Assembly: GCA_035477215.1 (NCBI GenBank)
Contig: DATIKU010000042.1
Coordinates: 1-63,922, forward strand
From: Spirochaetota bacterium
GTDB lineage: Bacteria > Spirochaetota > UBA4802 > UBA5368
Direction: 5' to 3'
DNA length: 63,922 nucleotides
Part shown: piece after piece, positions 31,234-46,103 of the stretch
Numbering within the stretch: the stretch's first letter is position 1
Layout: each line of letters opens with the position of its first letter
Program-made: the position numbers and the translations under genes
The notes under the pieces: generated by a model
What the model saw: only the letters and a program-made list of their open reading frames with translations
Database searches by the model: none
Told to the model about the DNA's origin: nothing

Positions 31234-34250
<3,017 letters not shown>

Positions 34251-34381
34251 ATATTATATTGTCTGCTGTTTCCAACAAACGGGTCGCTCGTAAATTCGTT
34301 TGTGAACGGACTACTTAATTAAATAAGTAGATACACCATATTTAAAAGAACAATGCAGCAAACAATCTCGCTTGTGCATTT

Positions 34382-34454
34382 TGGAGGTGAACGGGTTCGA
34401 ACCGATGACCTACTGCGTGCAAGGCAGTCGCTCTCCCAACTGAGCTACACCCCC
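34382..34454 (-). tRNA. tRNA-Ala (TGC)
   Basis: 73 bases between 16S and 23S. Acceptor GGGGGTG pairs with CACCTCC, D-arm GTAGCTCAGTTGGGAGAGC, anticodon loop CTTGCAC gives TGC, and T-arm GGTTCGAACC. Final A is the discriminator; CCA is not encoded. Confidence 0.97.
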
Positions 34455-34477
34455 CAATTCTTGCGTGCTTCCTGAAT

Positions 34478-34551
34478 TGGGCCTGAGTGGAGTCGAACCA
34501 CCGACCTTACGATTATCAGTCGTACGCTCTAACCAACTGAGCTACAGGCCC
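34478..34551 (-). tRNA. tRNA-Ile (GAT)
   Basis: 74 bases. Acceptor GGGCCTG pairs with CAGGCCC, D-arm GCTCAGTTGGTTAGAGC, anticodon loop CTGATAA gives GAT, and T-arm with GGTTCGACTCC. It is the first tRNA after 16S, in the usual Ile-Ala order. Confidence 0.97.
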
Positions 34552-34642
34552 ATGCTCTTTACTCCAACTTGAAACCACTCCGCACCGGGCGTCTCGCTCC
34601 ACTCATACATCACACCGGGTTTCAAGATAACCTGATTCCCTC

Positions 34643-34656
34643 AAAACTGAGTAGTA
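34643..34656 (-). other. 3' arm of the 16S processing stem
   Basis: AAAACTGAGTAGTA on the plus strand here is the exact complement of TACTACTCAGTTTT at 36313-36326. The two lie 40 bases after and 66 bases before the mature 16S, as expected for a 16S precursor stem cut by RNase III. Confidence 0.75.
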
Positions 34657-34695
34657 ATGATTAAGGCTCCACGTCACTGTTTAAGTCTATCCTTT

Positions 34696-36247
<1,552 letters not shown>

Positions 36248-40220: not shown

Positions 40221-42344
40221 TTATATGCCGACCCGCATGCCGAGATAATATGTTCTCGGTTTGACCGGGCCATAGATATACCCGGCATCCCTGGTGTCAC
40301 CTTCATCGAGATCATCCTGATAGGAATCGCTTATATTGTCGACCCCGGCGAAGAGATCAGCGTGCCGGTACTCGTCGATTTTCCAGCGATACCGGAGCTG
40401 CGCATTAAGCACCAGGAACGTATCGGTCTTTTCCAGCCTGTTAAGCGGCGTTCCGACATCATGCTCCAGCTTCTGACTGCCGATGTACTGTGTGGAAAAT
40501 GTAGCGGTCAGATCGCCTAAAAAAGCCTGCAGCATCGTGAATGCCGTCATCTCGGGAACGCGCAGCATGTCTTTCGTTGTGTCGTTATCGAACACCTGCT
40601 CTTCGGGTACGACCGCCTTCGCTATCCAGGTGCCCCCGAAACTGAAGCGTAGCAGATTTTTATACGAAAGCGATGCCTCGAGATTGCCGCCTATCACCTT
40701 CGAAGTGCCGTCCACATTATCACGCAGGAAATAATCGATATTGTCCACCACCAAGCTCGGCGCCGTGTAATCGACCTCCATCTTGTCCTTTATTGTGGTG
40801 TAGAAACCGCCGACCCCAAGGTCCACAAGGAAACCCCCGAAATGCGCGTCGGCGCTCAAATCGCAGCTGTACGACATGGATTTTTCCGCTTCAATATCCT
40901 CGCTGTTGATGATCACCTGCTGGTGGCCCGACCCGCTGGCCAGGGCTACTTCAATATGGAAGTCTTCGTCGAAGACCTGCGGCGCCTTGTAGCCGGCAGA
41001 CACTCCTCCCCTAAGACGAAGGTGGTCCGAGAAGCGGAGGATCGCGCTCAGGCGCGGAGCGGCGACGATCTCGTTCATCTCGCTGTGTTTGTCGGCCCGG
41101 ACGCCGGCAAGCAGGTTGACAACCTTTAAGCCCCAGTCGTACTGGGCATACGCTCCGTGGTTCTGATAATGCTCCTCGACCTCCCGGCCCATCCCCGGAT
41201 TCTCGTCGTCGATTTTATCGCTCGTGTACTCGTAGCCCAGTGAAATGGTGTGGTTTTTCCTCGGCGTGATGTTCGCGTTCGCCCCTGTGGCGAAATAGGG
41301 GTTCTCGGTGTTGCCGTACAGGGTTACGTTATCCGGGAGGTTCAACGGATCTGCCGGATCGCCGGCCGGACCGTAATAGGTATGCCGCTTGCTTCGGGCG
41401 AAGGCGCCGAAGATCGCGTAGCTGAATAAATCGGACACCTCGTGCTCCAGTCGGAAATCGCCGGAATCCCTGTTGGTCTTGGCCTGCTCGCGTATATTCG
41501 AATCGAACGGCTCCTTGTCGAGATTGTTTCCGCCCTTGCGGTCCTCGTAAAGCGAATAAAAGTTATACGACAATTCCATCCCCTTCATGATATTGAGGTA
41601 CCCGCTTGCGCCGAAGGTCTTGCTTTCGGTGCGCGCAAGGTCCGAATAGCCGTCGCCGTTGGCATCCCAGTCGTCCCGCTCCATCTTGGAGCCGAACACG
41701 GCGAGGCCCGCCTTTGCGTTACGCGACACCGCCGAGGCAAAGCCCGAAACCGTGTGCGCGAAGGCCTCGTCGCCTTTGACGAACTCCTGTTTGTAGGTAA
41801 GGCTCGCCTGGTTAGAGACCGGCTTGCGCGTGATTACATTGACAACTCCGCCGATCGCCCCGCTGCCGTACAGGGCTGACGCCCCCCCGCGCACGACCTC
41901 CACCCGGTCCACGAGTTCCACGGGAAACTGCTGTAAAAAATACACCCCGGCAAGCGAAGACAATGTGGGATAGCCGTTAAAGAGCATCTGCGTGTAATTA
42001 CCCTCAAGCCCGTTTATACTCACGGTATTGGCGGCGCAATTCTGGCACTGGTTATCGGCAAGCAACCCCGTTTCCGCGTTCAGCGCGTCGAAAAGTGTAC
42101 CCGCCCCCTTGGACTCCATCCTCTGGCGATCTATAAGATCGGTTTTTACCGGCGCGGTTTTCATGAACTTCTTCGTCTTGGTGCCCGTTACGACTATTTT
42201 AGAATCCGATTCCTCGGATTTATCGGCCTGATCCTTTTCAATTTCCGTTTCCACTTCGAACGCCATAAGCGCCGGCGATACGAAGCAGATAGCCACACCG
42301 AGCAGCGCGATGATTATCAACTTTTGCAAACGTCTTCTATTCAT
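40221..42344 (-). CDS. TonB-dependent outer membrane receptor with CxxC plug
   Basis: 707 residues. A signal peptide ends near residue 28 (SPALMA). An acidic segment leads to the TonB box SKIVVTGT (about 48-55). The plug domain (about 60-175) has FDALNAETGLLADNQCQNCAANTVSINGLEG (key part CQNC), LFNGYPTLSSLAGVYFLQQFP and the classic VEVVRGGASALYGSGAIGGVVNVIT. The remaining 530 residues are alternating barrel strands ending in YYLGMRVGI with a C-terminal aromatic/hydrophobic pattern. Such receptors import iron complexes, haem, cobalamin or other metals with energy from TonB-ExbBD. The CxxC in the plug is uncommon among textbook receptors and hints at metal or redox chemistry. It ends the operon started by exbB; substrate undecided. 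Confidence 0.92.
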   Translation of the reverse strand: MNRRRLQKLIIIALLGVAICFVSPALMAFEVETEIEKDQADKSEESDSKIVVTGTKTKKFMKTAPVKTDLIDRQRMESKGAGTLFDALNAETGLLADNQCQNCAANTVSINGLEGNYTQMLFNGYPTLSSLAGVYFLQQFPVELVDRVEVVRGGASALYGSGAIGGVVNVITRKPVSNQASLTYKQEFVKGDEAFAHTVSGFASAVSRNAKAGLAVFGSKMERDDWDANGDGYSDLARTESKTFGASGYLNIMKGMELSYNFYSLYEDRKGGNNLDKEPFDSNIREQAKTNRDSGDFRLEHEVSDLFSYAIFGAFARSKRHTYYGPAGDPADPLNLPDNVTLYGNTENPYFATGANANITPRKNHTISLGYEYTSDKIDDENPGMGREVEEHYQNHGAYAQYDWGLKVVNLLAGVRADKHSEMNEIVAAPRLSAILRFSDHLRLRGGVSAGYKAPQVFDEDFHIEVALASGSGHQQVIINSEDIEAEKSMSYSCDLSADAHFGGFLVDLGVGGFYTTIKDKMEVDYTAPSLVVDNIDYFLRDNVDGTSKVIGGNLEASLSYKNLLRFSFGGTWIAKAVVPEEQVFDNDTTKDMLRVPEMTAFTMLQAFLGDLTATFSTQYIGSQKLEHDVGTPLNRLEKTDTFLVLNAQLRYRWKIDEYRHADLFAGVDNISDSYQDDLDEGDTRDAGYIYGPVKPRTYYLGMRVGI

Positions 42345-42429
42345 GCGTTGTATCCTCCATATTAAAAATTCATTGCCGCTTCGGACAGCGCTCCGCCGGG
42401 ATGGCTGCCATCATGTCCGTTTTACGGCA

Positions 42430-42762
42430 TTATGCGTCGGTTTTTCGCGTCGTCAGTATTGGAAGAGCGGTTTGGAAAGGCGGTGCCCTGATGGTGTTCG
42501 ACCAGCCCGGCATGGTTTGCGGGAGCAGCGTACATGGATCGGTAACGTCATCTACCTGTACAAAGCACGCGATGACCGACAACAGCCCCCCCTGGAACTC
42601 GGCGCCCATGAAAGTGAGAGACTTGCAGAAAATATCTCCACCAACTCCGGGATGGGGGTCGAAGTGTTCTTTCGGCAGGGCGAAGGTGAGTGATGACGCC
42701 AGCAGAACGCCGATCGTAAGGGCATGGAACCGGGACGGCGAATGTCGGAGTGCTTTTTTCAT
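42430..42762 (-). CDS. Small secreted protein B of the TonB locus
   Basis: 110 residues. The ATG lies 4 bases after the tonB stop with GAGAGG as ribosome site, so it is translated with tonB. A signal-like hydrophobic segment (ALTIGVLLASSLTFA) is followed by LPKEHFDPHPGVGGDIFCKSL. This matches protein A (44647-44952), which has LPRETFDPHFGVGADVFCKSL. The shared pattern is LP(K/R)ExFDPHxGVGxDxFCKSL, with one His and one Cys conserved. Three Cys lie after the signal. The two also share a Pro-rich tail ending xRAPP. No known family comes to mind. Position between tonB and the receptor suggests a periplasmic accessory, perhaps ligand or metal binding; that is inference. Confidence 0.72.
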   Translation of the reverse strand: MKKALRHSPSRFHALTIGVLLASSLTFALPKEHFDPHPGVGGDIFCKSLTFMGAEFQGGLLSVIACFVQVDDVTDPCTLLPQTMPGWSNTIRAPPFQTALPILTTRKTDA

Positions 42763-42766
42763 CCTC

Positions 42767-43327
42767 TCACCACAGGGTGAACCTTATTTCCAGCCGGATC
42801 GTCATCTCCTCCTCCGCGAGCGCCGGGGGGAATGGCTCGAAGGGAAGAGATCTGGTGATGCTCGCGATGGCCGCGTCGGTCAGCGCCGGATACCGGGCGG
42901 GGCGCAGGATGGTCACCTTCTTAACGCTTCCGCTACGGGTGACGAGCAGGCGCACCGCCACGATCCCCTCGTGACCCTTCTTTTGCGAATCGTCGGGGTA
43001 CAGCTTGTTGCGCTCGATTCTGGAGACAAGGTACGACACGTACCGCTGGCGGACGTCATCCGCCGTAAGATTGTCTTCCGCCACTCGCTTCTCGGCCTCG
43101 TCCTTTTCGAGCTCGCGGGGAATCTCGGAGACCCTGCGCACATGGTACTGCTCCTGCCCCCTGTTAAGATCGATGACCGTCCGCTCGGGTGAGGAAAACT
43201 CGATGCCGGTGACAACGGCGATGGCAATCGTCATCAGGAGGATTATCCCTCCCACGCGGTTGAGCATCGAGCCGCTCTCGAGATCTTTTAAAAAATCGAG
43301 GAACATTCTCTCGCGATCGAGTCGCAT
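42767..43327 (-). CDS. tonB: TonB-like energy transducer
   Basis: 186 residues from the ATG at 43327, eight bases after the exbD stop; a longer frame from 43411 would overlap exbD. One N-terminal membrane helix (GGIILLMTIAIAVVTGIEF) is followed by a short periplasmic spacer without the long Pro-Glu/Pro-Lys stretch of E. coli TonB. The C-terminal TonB domain reads YLVSRIERNKLYPDDSQKKG, then GIVAVRLLVTRSGSVKKVTI and YPALTDAAIASITRSLPFEPFP. It carries proton-motive energy from ExbBD to the receptor. The spacer is short, so the periplasm may be narrow or the protein may work with a partner. Confidence 0.9.
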   Translation of the reverse strand: MRLDRERMFLDFLKDLESGSMLNRVGGIILLMTIAIAVVTGIEFSSPERTVIDLNRGQEQYHVRRVSEIPRELEKDEAEKRVAEDNLTADDVRQRYVSYLVSRIERNKLYPDDSQKKGHEGIVAVRLLVTRSGSVKKVTILRPARYPALTDAAIASITRSLPFEPFPPALAEEEMTIRLEIRFTLW

Positions 43328-43337
43328 CTGCGTGCCC

Positions 43338-43736
43338 CTACCTCTTACGGTCATGCTCGACCGAGAAGCTGGTGGAACCCGCCAGCTTGGCGATATCAAG
43401 TATCTCCACAAAGGCCCCGTAGCTTATGGAAACATCCCCCTTAAAGATCACGTCGTATTTTCCAAGCTTCGCCATGCGATCCTGAAGCACCCCCTGCAGA
43501 TCTTCTATCGCAACCAGGTCCTTGTTGACATACACCCGCCCCCTGGGGTCCACCGTAACGACCAGATCGACCTTCTCCAGCTTCTCCTTGAAGAGGGCCT
43601 TGGGAAGCTCCATCTTCAGCATCGGGGCGATGAAGTTCGAGCTCAGCATGAAGAAAATCAGCAGTTGAAAGATGATGTCGATGAGCGGCGCCAGCTCGAT
43701 ATGCGGATCGTTACGCCTGCCGCGAATGAATTCCAT
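43338..43736 (-). CDS. exbD: ExbD/TolR family protein
   Basis: 132 residues. The N-terminal membrane helix contains IELAPLIDIIFQLLIFFMLSS, with the essential Asp in PLIDIIFQL. A periplasmic domain (DLVVTVDPRGRVYVNKDLVAIEDLQ) follows. It forms the proton channel with ExbB to energise TonB. The ATG at 43736 overlaps the exbB stop, and tonB follows after 10 bases, so the three are one transcript. Confidence 0.93.
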   Translation of the reverse strand: MEFIRGRRNDPHIELAPLIDIIFQLLIFFMLSSNFIAPMLKMELPKALFKEKLEKVDLVVTVDPRGRVYVNKDLVAIEDLQGVLQDRMAKLGKYDVIFKGDVSISYGAFVEILDIAKLAGSTSFSVEHDRKR

Positions 43737-44503
43737 CAGACCGCCTCCTCCACAACCGTACCGGGACCGGACCCGAAGGAGATGGCATCGAGCCCGGATG
43801 ACGCCTCCTCACACCCGTTGGTCGAGTCATAAAAGCGCTCGTTGAGATAGGTCACGGTATAACTCATGCCGTTTATCCTCTCGGAGATGAGCTTGTCGAG
43901 ATACATGTAGGCCAGCTGCGCGGGAATCGCCACCGACAGGCCGGCCACGGTGGTGATGAGCGCCTCCCAGATGCCGCCCGCCAGCGACGAGACGTCGACC
44001 TGCCCTCCCATGTCGGCGATGACGGCGAAGGCGCTGATGATACCGGTGACCGTGCCGAGCAGTCCGAGCAGTGGCTCCACATGCGCCACGGCCGAAAGCC
44101 CGCGCATATGGCGCTCCATGCGCTCGACCTCCTCGGATCCCGTGCGCTTGAGGGCCTCCTCCCTCGATCGCGCGCCGCGGCCGAGGTTTTCCATATAGAC
44201 CAGCACCAGCTTCACGTAGGGGCTTCGCTTCCACCGCTCCGCGTCGATCCTCTCCATCAGGCGGGAAAGTATGCCTTCGCCCCGCCTTTTCGCCTTGCCC
44301 TCGGGAACAACCAGAATATCGAGCCCTTCAAGGGGGCCGGCGGATAACCGTTCGACCAGCGCCTGCCTGAACAGCGTATATCGAACCGAGGTGAAATAAA
44401 AATACAGAAGACGCTCCACGGTAATCGCCAGGCCAAGGAAGGCCCCGGCGATGATCGGCCACATTACGGGGCCGCCTTTTTCTATCAATTCGAACATATT
44501 CAC
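43736..44503 (-). CDS. exbB: ExbB/TolQ/MotA family proton channel protein
   Basis: 255 residues, the family length. The first membrane helix is at GGPVMWPIIAGAFLGLAITVERLLYFYF. After a cytoplasmic part (residues about 50-125), a second helix reads HVEPLLGLLGTVTGIISAFAVI and a third IWEALITTVAGLSVAIPAQLAYMYL. These are the MotA/ExbB signatures LLGLLGTVTGMI and ALxTTxxGLxVAIP. It partners ExbD. GGGAG precedes the ATG. The residues around 65-110 (KAKRRGEGILSRLMERIDAE) are more charged than in E. coli. Confidence 0.93.
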   Translation of the reverse strand: MNMFELIEKGGPVMWPIIAGAFLGLAITVERLLYFYFTSVRYTLFRQALVERLSAGPLEGLDILVVPEGKAKRRGEGILSRLMERIDAERWKRSPYVKLVLVYMENLGRGARSREEALKRTGSEEVERMERHMRGLSAVAHVEPLLGLLGTVTGIISAFAVIADMGGQVDVSSLAGGIWEALITTVAGLSVAIPAQLAYMYLDKLISERINGMSYTVTYLNERFYDSTNGCEEASSGLDAISFGSGPGTVVEEAV

Positions 44504-44526
44504 ACTCCCTGAGGATATCGAGTCTC

Positions 44527-44542
44527 ATACAAAGACTTGTAT
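44527..44542. promoter_or_regulatory. ATACAA-agac-TTGTAT dyad before exbB
   Basis: A perfect 6-bp inverted repeat with a 4-base centre lies 24 bases upstream of the exbB ATG. It could be an operator for an internal promoter or an mRNA hairpin that sets the level of exbB relative to small protein A. Confidence 0.35.
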
Positions 44543-44646
44543 TTAATGACGCAAGGCTACTTCACATGGCGGCCGTTGGAGCCTTCTCCCGGAAAACATA
44601 CTCGGGACCCTGTGTTCGCCTCTTTGGTACTGATCGGGGTGATGAG

Positions 44647-44952
44647 TCAGCGGGGAGGAGCCCTTGTGGGATCGGAACCACGAACGGGGTATGCGGGTAA
44701 AACAGCGAACACATAAACAATATGCCGCATATATACGGGATGCGTATCGACGAGAGTATCCGCATCCTGCGATCCATCCCCTATCGAGTAGAGGGATTTG
44801 CAGAAAACGTCCGCACCGACGCCAAAGTGAGGGTCGAAGGTCTCCCGCGGCAGAAAAAACGTCATCGCCGAGAGGAGGAACACAACCACCGCACCCCGCC
44901 TGAGCAGGGCCGGCGCATCCTTCCCGAAGATTTTACCCGCCGTTGTAATCAT
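44647..44952 (-). CDS. Small secreted protein A of the TonB locus
   Basis: 101 residues. N-terminal charged segment, hydrophobic stretch (GAVVVFLLSAMTFFLP), then RETFDPHFGVGADVFCKSLYS. It is paralogous to protein B (42430-42762): about 13 of 20 residues match in the core motif, and both end near LPxxxP...xRAPP. The two also match at the DNA level at roughly two thirds over the motif, so this is an old duplication. It has one Cys after the signal, against three in B. No strong ribosome site is seen before the ATG. It lies 143 bases upstream of exbB on the same strand and downstream of a promoter-like region at 45123-45150. Family and function unknown. Confidence 0.65.
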   Translation of the reverse strand: MITTAGKIFGKDAPALLRRGAVVVFLLSAMTFFLPRETFDPHFGVGADVFCKSLYSIGDGSQDADTLVDTHPVYMRHIVYVFAVLPAYPVRGSDPTRAPPR

Positions 44953-45122
44953 CGCACGTTCCGGAACCTATACACTGAAACCGCCGATCGACCCCCGTCA
45001 ACCCTTTTGTTTGTCCGCCCGCGCCCGAGCAGCCGGGCCCTCCCTTAACAGTTTTCAATCACCCAGCCCGCACCGAACGGCCGGATTCATTCATAAGCCA
45101 TTCAATAATATAGTTATCACAC

Positions 45123-45150
45123 AATGTTAGTTTTATCTAATATTCGTCAA
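45123..45150 (-). promoter_or_regulatory. Promoter with overlapping dyad for the TonB locus
   Basis: On the minus strand TTGACG (45150-45145) is followed at once by a dyad, AATATTAG-ataaaa-CTAACATT (45144-45123), arms matching 7 of 8. A TAACAT at 45129-45124 could be the -10 with a 15-base spacer; the fit is not perfect. The dyad would block polymerase if bound. Its TTAG/CTAA core recalls metal-dependent DtxR/MntR-type sites only loosely. The leader to protein A would be about 160 bases. Confidence 0.45.
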
Positions 45151-45326
45151 GCAAAATACCCGGGCGCCTCGAAAAATCAGGGCATTCATTATTCAAATAA
45201 TAGTAGGTCCTGATATAACCGGCGGTTGCACCCACAGGGTAACTTCAAAAAACGAATTTATAGAGGTCCCCGCCTCTTTTCGATGCTGATCCTGCCTGAA
45301 TTCCACTGGATGAGTGTAAACGGGGG

Positions 45327-46103
45327 CTACTTCTCGTGGAGAAATTTCCCTTCGGAGAGAAAAAAAAGCACATTGTCGGCCACCGCACGCTGCGCCAGGA
45401 GCGTGGAGTGCTGGCCTTTCAAAAGTATGAAGTCCTTCATCCCGGGCAGCTTCGTTTCTTCCACCTTCACCGTGCCGTCGTTATCGCCGGGAATGAACGG
45501 GTTGATTCCGACCTCGCTACCGAGGCCGCCCGCGATAACGCCGAACTCCGCGCGGGGCGGGGGAAGGAGAAGCGGATACGAATCGGGTGCGCCGGCCACC
45601 TGCTGCCCGGCCCTGCCGAACGCCCAGCGATAGGGCATCCATTTGCCCAGGTACGATGCGAGCGTCGAGCCCCGGTTTGGCGGCGCGATCATCACCACGC
45701 GGCCCGGGTTCGGGCACGCGTAATGCGCGAGGTAGTAGCGCACCACGATACCGCCCAGGCTGTGTGTGACAAAATGGAGCCTGCCTCGCTCCGGGGGAAG
45801 CTGTTGTACGGTCTGGTGGAGCAGCTCGGCGATGTCCTCTATCGATTCGCGGGTGCTCGGATAACCGAAATTGATTACGCGGTAACCCCGCTTTGCAAGG
45901 GCCGTCTCGATCTTCGCCATGGAGCGCGGACTGCGGAATATGCCATGCAGAAGGATGACCCATTCACCGTCCCGCCCGTTTTCGATTTCTCTCACCGCGG
46001 CGTCCTCTCCATGTTTTCCCGAGCGGTTGAAATACAACCATGCCGCCGCCAGGACGGCGACCCCGGCGACGAGTACGACGCCGATCGTTCCGGGACGACC
46101 CAT
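45327..46103 (-). CDS. Membrane-anchored alpha/beta hydrolase (lipase-like)
   Basis: 258 residues from the ATG at 46103 (MGRPGTIGVVLVAGVAVLAAAWLYF), with GGGGTGAG upstream; this start puts the anchor at the N-terminus. The hydrolase core has the oxyanion region WVILLHGIFRSPRSM, the nucleophile elbow THSLGG (Ser about residue 139 of this start), RVVMIAPPNRGS and a late acidic segment PGDNDGTVKVEET before KGQHSTLL, which gives Asp and His for the triad. The sequence recalls PGAP1/lipase-like esterases of bacteria. It starts 4 bases after the PlsB-like acyltransferase stop, so they form an operon with a common theme of lipid acyl handling. Confidence 0.88.
   Translation of the reverse strand: MGRPGTIGVVLVAGVAVLAAAWLYFNRSGKHGEDAAVREIENGRDGEWVILLHGIFRSPRSMAKIETALAKRGYRVINFGYPSTRESIEDIAELLHQTVQQLPPERGRLHFVTHSLGGIVVRYYLAHYACPNPGRVVMIAPPNRGSTLASYLGKWMPYRWAFGRAGQQVAGAPDSYPLLLPPPRAEFGVIAGGLGSEVGINPFIPGDNDGTVKVEETKLPGMKDFILLKGQHSTLLAQRAVADNVLFFLSEGKFLHEK

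Follow-up and report, generated by a model that had tools for sequence, protein, structure and literature searches.

Tandem RAPP-ended open reading frames as probable regulatory leaders in a spirochaete TonB operon

The window analysed here is a stretch of 63,922 nucleotides (nt) from a member of the Spirochaetota (contig DATIKU010000042.1 of assembly GCA_035477215.1), and this report concerns a minus-strand TonB locus within it. In that locus two small open reading frames (ORFs), A and B, are placed among the genes of a TonB system in the order A, exbB, exbD, tonB, B, receptor; the ORF list and Pfam confirm this series, and B begins four bases past tonB (the TGA stop, then GAGG, then the ATG of B). 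An earlier note, made from the letters of this DNA, had described the same order and had read A and B as periplasmic partners of a dedicated uptake system, acting through metal or cofactor binding or through thiol exchange with a CxxC in the receptor plug. Our analysis retains the first part, the membership of A and B in a single TonB system whose receptor has a CxxC plug, and revises the second: we consider it likely, with a probability of roughly three in four, that A and B are regulatory leader ORFs, i.e., nascent-chain sensors or arrest peptides, rather than periplasmic partners. This reading follows from three features: a C-terminal (R/K)APP that is kept, a nearly fixed spacing between it and an invariant Cys, and no predicted folded domain. 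Arrest itself, the sensing of a ligand, the sign of the response and the downstream step are argued by analogy with leader families in the literature, which are described below from the accessible portions of the papers cited.

The putative leader family and its RAPP end

When aligned, A and B have LP(R/K)ExFDPHxGVGxDxFCKSL and RAPP in common, and a query with B retrieves A in its own genome at 2.9e-12. The alignment thus bears out the earlier description of two paralogous proteins with a shared motif and a signal-like start. Both are real ORFs that are selected at the protein level. Between the window and two congeners, the ratio of nonsynonymous to synonymous substitution rates (dN/dS) was 0.28-0.44 for A and 0.23-0.25 for B, one B pair being saturated, and 0.05-0.18 for exbD and tonB; shifted frames, compared between the window and one congener only, gave 0.77-2.1. 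The linker between motif and RAPP is freer to change (0.33-0.88), and just 0-4 amino acid changes were counted in each motif or RAPP segment, synonymous sites being almost saturated in the more distant comparisons. This codon-level selection disfavours an RNA element in place of a protein. A riboswitch or other known RNA was also rejected as a candidate: at the gathering score Rfam matches in the window were limited to rRNA and two tRNAs, and within 42300-45400 there was no match up to an E value of 1.

We collected 13 full-length leaders; a truncated copy at a contig end (G222:C516, L028), its letters identical to those of another copy, was excluded. All 13 keep the motif's Asp, His, Asp and Cys, no other Cys is invariant, and hydropathy places a hydrophobic N-terminal segment after basic residues in every one. 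Searches with A and B of Pfam, NCBIfam, PHROGs and PDB sequences came back empty or with noise. An AlphaFold2 model of B, built on 12 leader sequences, has a signal helix and one short helix, and the rest is of low confidence (mean predicted local distance difference test score, pLDDT, 59; predicted template modelling score, pTM, 0.29); no folded domain is predicted for the leaders. An ancient duplication separating A from B was considered and rejected, the tree being too weak to carry it (57/78 support for the A and B sides, no starred branch).

The C-terminal motif is RAPP in 12 of the 13 leaders and KAPP in one, and the stop codon follows PP after 1-15 residues. From the invariant Cys to the Arg or Lys of this motif there are 45 residues in nine leaders, 44 in two, 46 in one and 48 in one. 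The linker is therefore free in sequence while its length hardly varies. RAPP is a ribosome-arrest motif that bacterial proteomes avoid, and RAPP- or RGPP-containing ORFs ahead of TonB-dependent receptors are a recognised class; one of them, CruR, arrests in vitro, the P site being occupied by the third RAPP codon and the A site by the fourth (PMC12992588). CruR of Bordetella pertussis is the leader of a copper-regulated TonB transporter, and its CXXC and RAPP are 45 residues apart; adding five residues impairs copper control and changing RAPP abolishes downstream expression (PMC9426467).

A similar spacing is found in a second group of spirochaete leaders. The DUF2946 model (PF11162) gave 14 matches, eight of which were retrieved with their neighbours; six of these eight show an ORF of the form CPxC...R(A/G)PP, and G163 and G378 show none. 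In the six, five of them from outside the order to which the window's leader family belongs and one in G198, CPxC and R(A/G)PP are 44-46 residues apart. PF11162 matched none of the 13 leaders, a search of these for the CXXC copper motif found none conserved and a single invariant Cys, and hhalign detected no similarity between the leader family and the six DUF2946-like leaders (probability 1.6%). Layout and spacing are thus common to the two groups, with no homology detected between them. CruR-type leaders (CPVC or CSAC...RAPP) also stand before TonB receptors without a CxxC plug in two leader genomes, at L086:4110-4451 in G198, where the match to DUF2946 is weak, and at L099 in G222, where the assignment is by motif alone. 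Because CruR-type leaders occur within the order, both leader types can coexist in one genome.

Linkage to motor genes and CxxC-plug receptors

A profile of A and B matched nine of 392 genomes sampled from the phylum, and a 13-member leader profile matched nine of the 46 genomes of the order; weak matches in G014 and G189 were set aside because of internal stops. The family is present in eight genomes, all of one spirochaete order. A scan of named genomes with a single peptide pattern, the sole search beyond the phylum, returned six loci, all in metagenome-assembled genomes of Spirochaetes/Spirochaetota and all corresponding to genomes already in the set. Five genomes have the order A-exbB-exbD-tonB-B-receptor (the window's own, G000, and G183, G213, G198 and G222). 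In G112 the contig starts inside exbB and reads exbB-exbD-tonB-B-receptor, and G127 and G082 have a single leader directly ahead of a receptor gene. All 13 leaders lie directly upstream of exbB or of a receptor gene, on the same strand, with 20-199 nt from the leader stop to the next start (two downstream starts were later shifted by 6 and 9 nt, and two leader starts are provisional and not ATG). Homologues scattered away from exbBD and CxxC receptors would have spoken against the earlier note; in the eight leader genomes the family sits directly before exbB or a CxxC-plug receptor.

The plug of the window's receptor reads CQNCAANTVSINGLEG, with CQNC ahead of INGLEG as the earlier note had it. 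Both Cys are invariant in the eight leader-linked receptors, and the CxxC aligns to the stretch that precedes the conserved IRG of Cir. The plug stretch that holds the CxxC faces the ligand in such receptors. Among solved structures the nearest by sequence is Cir, followed by the ferric enterobactin receptor, a haem receptor and BtuB; all NCBIfam receptor models scored far under their cut-offs for the window's receptor.

We surveyed the plug-bearing receptors of nine genomes and classified 70 of 71, leaving out one at a contig end (G170:C25). A cut receptor of G170 was resolved through a second, end-overlapping contig that was read by eye, and the L107 receptor, at first without upstream sequence, was later entered as leaderless. 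An FDPH leader stands directly upstream of eight of the 10 receptors with a CxxC plug and of none of the 60 others (Fisher p 4.8e-9). When any RAPP-type leader is counted, the association with the CxxC plug has a Fisher p of 2.0e-7, two receptors without CxxC having CruR-type leaders; both p values are guides, as the nine genomes are related and were chosen for having the receptor. The two leaderless CxxC-plug receptors both belong to G170, one of them in a unit of dyad, exbB, exbD, tonB and receptor, which offers a natural leaderless counterpart, with the same dyad and operon, for comparison.

Relatives of the receptor are also found on 15 plasmid records, 14 of them from Bacteroidota. Twelve were retrieved, and nine of the 12 have a CxxC plug. 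Three of these nine (in Parabacteroides, Bacteroides and Phocaeicola) directly follow a small ORF that bears a signal, has a His-rich middle and carries LRAPP close to its end; no Pfam or NCBIfam family rose above noise for these ORFs. The pairing of a plug-CQNC receptor relative with a signal-bearing LRAPP ORF directly before it resembles the spirochaete arrangement. Unlike A and B, these leaders have a His-rich THVHxxxGxxIVHxHP in place of FDPH...FC; the likeness was judged by eye only, and no exbB adjoins them within the stretches examined. In all three, 45-46 residues separate a His from the Arg of RAPP that follows, which, given the many His present, is only suggestive. On a Haliscomenobacter plasmid, an ORF at L169:2269-2592 encodes a DUF6660 protein (E 1.1e-6) that ends in IWQPPTIS; it lies directly ahead of a receptor that has no CxxC, with a CusA/CzcA-type efflux gene nearby, and is perhaps another type of leader.

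Coordinates of the locus and of related leaders are collected in Table 1.

Table 1. Features of the TonB locus and of leaders compared with it. Positions are those of the window unless a locus handle is given; aa, amino acids.
Feature	Position	Strand	Remarks
Putative metal-repressor operator	45123-45144		conserved dyad AATATTAG-N6-CTAACATT (minus-strand reading)
Leader ORF A, 101 aa	44647-44952	minus	signal sequence, FDPH...FC motif, linker, RAPP, stop; heads exbB-exbD-tonB
A motif FDPHFGVGADVFC, residues 39-51	44800-44838	minus	Asp, His, Asp, Cys invariant in 13/13 leaders
A RAPP codons, residues 97-100	44653-44664	minus	1 residue, then stop
exbB (MotA/TolQ/ExbB proton channel)	43736-44503	minus	Pfam MotA_ExbB 5.8e-28; ATG 44497 looks the likelier start than GTG 44503, from spacing to AGGGAG
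exbD	43338-43736	minus	Pfam ExbD 4.8e-25
tonB	42767-43327	minus	Pfam TonB_C 9.3e-14; start set at ATG 43327, ORF list has an earlier TTG at 43411
Leader ORF B, 110 aa	42430-42762	minus	heads receptor gene
B motif FDPHPGVGGDIFC, residues 34-46	42625-42663	minus	from leader alignment
B RAPP codons, residues 92-95	42478-42489	minus	15 residues, then stop
GGAGGA ribosome-binding site of receptor gene	42353-42358	minus	
TonB-dependent receptor, 707 aa	40221-42344	minus	Pfam Plug 3.2e-22, TonB_dep_Rec_b-barrel 4.3e-30
Receptor plug CQNC, residues 100-103	42036-42047	minus	directly ahead of conserved NGLEG segment
Bacteroidales plasmid LRAPP leaders	L160:2191-2544, L163:2215-2595, L165:2121-2462		
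DUF2946-like R(A/G)PP leaders	L082:5128-5808, L083:3125-3721, L084:4681-5145, L085:4180-4686, L088:4497-4835		most below the Pfam cut-off
Complete rRNA operon (16S, tRNA-Ile, tRNA-Ala, 23S)	31238-36246	minus	

The upstream dyad and the probable ligand

In the window, a dyad with the core TTAG-N6-CTAA starts 4 nt downstream of a TTGACG hexamer. The same core is found ahead of the first leader at all five loci with 400 nt of upstream sequence (the window, G183, G198, G127 and G082), each time with TTGAC(A/G) upstream of it. Out of 3328 simple dyads it is the only one present at all five loci, the next best being present at two, and its chance of occurrence per locus is 0.003-0.014. The G213 locus, where no dyad was found within the 212 nt upstream of A, was not counted, and A of G222, with 21 nt upstream, was left out. 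With at most one mismatch allowed, the long form of the dyad occurs at one place in G000 and at one in G183. Across nine genomes the pattern had 14 matches compared with 11 for a reversed control, which is no excess, and G127 and G170 have at least as many control matches as real ones; the case for the dyad therefore rests on its position.

The operator consensus of DtxR/IdeR is TTAGGNNNNCCTAA (PMC8464063). The TTAG and CTAA arms and their spacing fit this consensus at all five loci, and the site in the window lacks the inner G and C. A DtxR-family domain was found in 44 of the 46 genomes of the order, in G000 at G000:C14; it is absent from one leader genome, G222, which is 69% complete. In G082, five further TTAG-N6-CTAA sites lie on a single contig (contig 73; L192 and L193), where they adjoin an HmuY-receptor pair, a flavodoxin gene, a TetR-receptor pair and a MarR/ferredoxin-type unit. 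By its gene content this cluster is a candidate iron regulon and reads like iron control. Taken as a whole, the leader ligand is probably a metal, and the context of the dyad weakly favours iron over copper.

We weighed whether A and B might instead be copper-responsive members of the CruR/CutF group in the strict sense, serving copper import. Their layout and 45-residue spacing are those of CruR, CruR-like leaders are present in the same order, and some operons with CruR at their head include ExbBD and TonB genes as well (PMC12914433). Set against this are the missing CXXC, the lack of DUF2946 matches and of hhalign similarity, the absence of any PF11162 match from the window's own genome, and the HmuY, flavodoxin and receptor genes next to the G082 dyads. 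The COX1 family, moreover, occurs in 17 of the 46 genomes of the order, in two of the eight leader genomes and not in G000; supply of copper for respiratory oxidases was rejected on this ground, and we regard the copper reading as unlikely. Among the 18 COX1-family matches in the order, 11 are frames of 744-777 residues, both leader-genome matches included, a length that hints at quinol nitric oxide reductases in place of oxidases. Nos_propeller matched none of the 46 genomes and was also silent in controls, so it gives no evidence either way on nitrous oxide reductase.

Proposed mechanism, rival readings and known leaders

As leaders, A and B could act in the following way. A metal-type repressor bound at the dyad would control transcription of the whole unit. 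The signal sequence of A would direct the nascent chain to the Sec machinery. Stalling would occur at RAPP, with FDPHxGVxxDxFC about 45 residues back, near or past the tunnel mouth. Under ligand shortage the stalled ribosome would, by analogy with CruR, keep exbB-exbD-tonB expressed, either by making their ribosome-binding site accessible or by protecting the mRNA from Rho; ligand bound by the motif would release the arrest, and downstream expression would drop. B would act likewise for the receptor, giving motor and receptor a checkpoint each. The more specific proposal, that such tandem arrest-peptide sensors set motor and receptor separately and that the single-Cys motif reads iron or an iron compound while the chain leaves the ribosome or the Sec channel, is a distinctly tentative one.

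For the downstream step, a ribosome parked at RAPP was predicted to open the next ribosome-binding site more than in shuffles in five of the 13 leaders (B of G183, B of G213, A and B of G198, and B of G112); the combined p of 3.8e-4 counts relatives as if they were independent and should not be over-read. Combined over the 13 leaders, duplex energy (p 0.32) and free-state accessibility (p 0.20) were not significant. With five leaders beating shuffles and three reversing, release of the ribosome-binding site was rejected as a universal step, and Rho shielding is an alternative.

Several observations weigh against the leader reading. The G170 unit (L194:3330-5751) runs from the dyad through exbB, exbD and tonB into the first part of a CxxC receptor gene and has neither leader, so the leaders are dispensable, and six of the nine CxxC-plug receptors on Bacteroidota plasmids have no RAPP leader. 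In the window itself, the predicted accessibility of the site after A hardly moves (0.20 to 0.21, p 0.47) and that after B falls (0.16 to 0.02, p 0.94), as it does for A of G213 and the G127 leader. Most of the Escherichia coli and Bacillus subtilis proteins with RAPP-like motifs that were tried stalled inefficiently (PMC10987492), so RAPP by itself is insufficient for arrest, and KAPP, the form in one leader, goes without mention in the accessible portion of PMC12992588. Replacing the export signal of CruR had no effect (PMC9426467), which makes the Sec step doubtful for A and B. The sensor chemistry would also have to differ from that of CruR, since there is no CXXC and a single invariant Cys, and the structure model draws on the 12 sequences mentioned above.

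The same data are compatible with release by protein export alone. By the logic of SecM, VemP and ApdP, slow Sec transport or a low proton-motive force would prolong the arrest and raise motor and receptor; a signal sequence with RAPP is the layout of an export monitor (PMC10987492), and ExbBD runs on the proton-motive force. The known monitors precede secA, secDF and yidC (PMC10987492) and have hardly anything but the arrest motif in common. By contrast, the Asp, His, Asp and Cys of the present family are invariant at a nearly fixed distance from that motif, and the dyad, with its neighbours in one relative, suggests metal control. We give the export-monitor alternative a low probability. No better placed is the original proposal of small periplasmic metal or cofactor binders, or thiol partners of the plug CxxC, in which RAPP would be incidental or structural: the signal-like N termini, the invariant Asp, His and Cys (still plausible as the ligand site of a sensor) and the close linkage to CxxC-plug receptors would suit it, but all 13 leaders keep, at the C terminus, an arrest motif avoided in bacterial proteomes (PMC12992588), the linker is free in sequence and hardly in length, no domain is predicted, one invariant Cys does not favour thiol exchange, and there are two copies, each directly ahead of the gene group it would control, rather than one.

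Returning to A and B as leaders, the class of mechanism is already known. Like CruR (DUF2946), they are small exported-type ORFs with a C-terminal RAPP, directly ahead of a TonB-dependent transporter gene in that case, and with metal-ligand residues 45 residues before the Arg (PMC9426467). They differ from CruR in having FDPHxGVxxDxFC with one Cys, without a CXXC or detected sequence similarity, in numbering two per operon, one before exbB-exbD-tonB and one internal before the receptor, and in a dyad that looks to be of the iron type. Leader-headed TonB-receptor operons are also known for the copper transporter CrtA: cruR is first in over 40% of CrtA operons, some of which hold ExbBD and TonB genes (PMC12914433), so there is precedent for a leader upstream of motor genes. 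A single cruR heads those operons, and a second leader between tonB and receptor goes unmentioned in the accessible portion of that paper. The sole comparison of the window's receptor with CrtA was a PDB sequence search, in which CrtA was not listed by name.

CutF likewise is a leader of the exported kind that has metal-binding residues and ends in a Pro-rich stretch, and a stem-loop hides the next ribosome-binding site; unlike A and B as we read them, it raises an oxidase when copper is present, and its Pro-rich end differs (PMC9973294). The same source calls CutF-like proteins scarce in Spirochaetota, and ExbB and ExbD are absent from its main text. In the wider class, signal-bearing ORFs ending in RAPP precede TonB-dependent receptor genes throughout Gram-negative bacteria (PMC12992588); the FDPH family, its tandem arrangement and its spacing are not described there, and the main text, in its accessible portion, is without ExbB, TolQ or MotA. 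Within the accessible literature on such leaders, we did not find the FDPH family, its motif, a second leader inside the operon or a leader directly before exbB described.

To our knowledge, no nascent-chain sensor for iron is known. Few nascent-chain metal sensors of any kind have been worked out, CruR and CutF among them (PMC9426467, PMC9973294). That leaders without similarity to DUF2946 keep the same distance between ligand site and arrest site points to a physical rule, set by the length of the tunnel and the translocon. If the tandem iron-sensor proposal is true, the distance of about 45 residues from ligand site to RAPP would be a general ruler across unrelated leader families, and the arrangement of A and B suggests separate checkpoints for the TonB motor and its receptor inside one operon.

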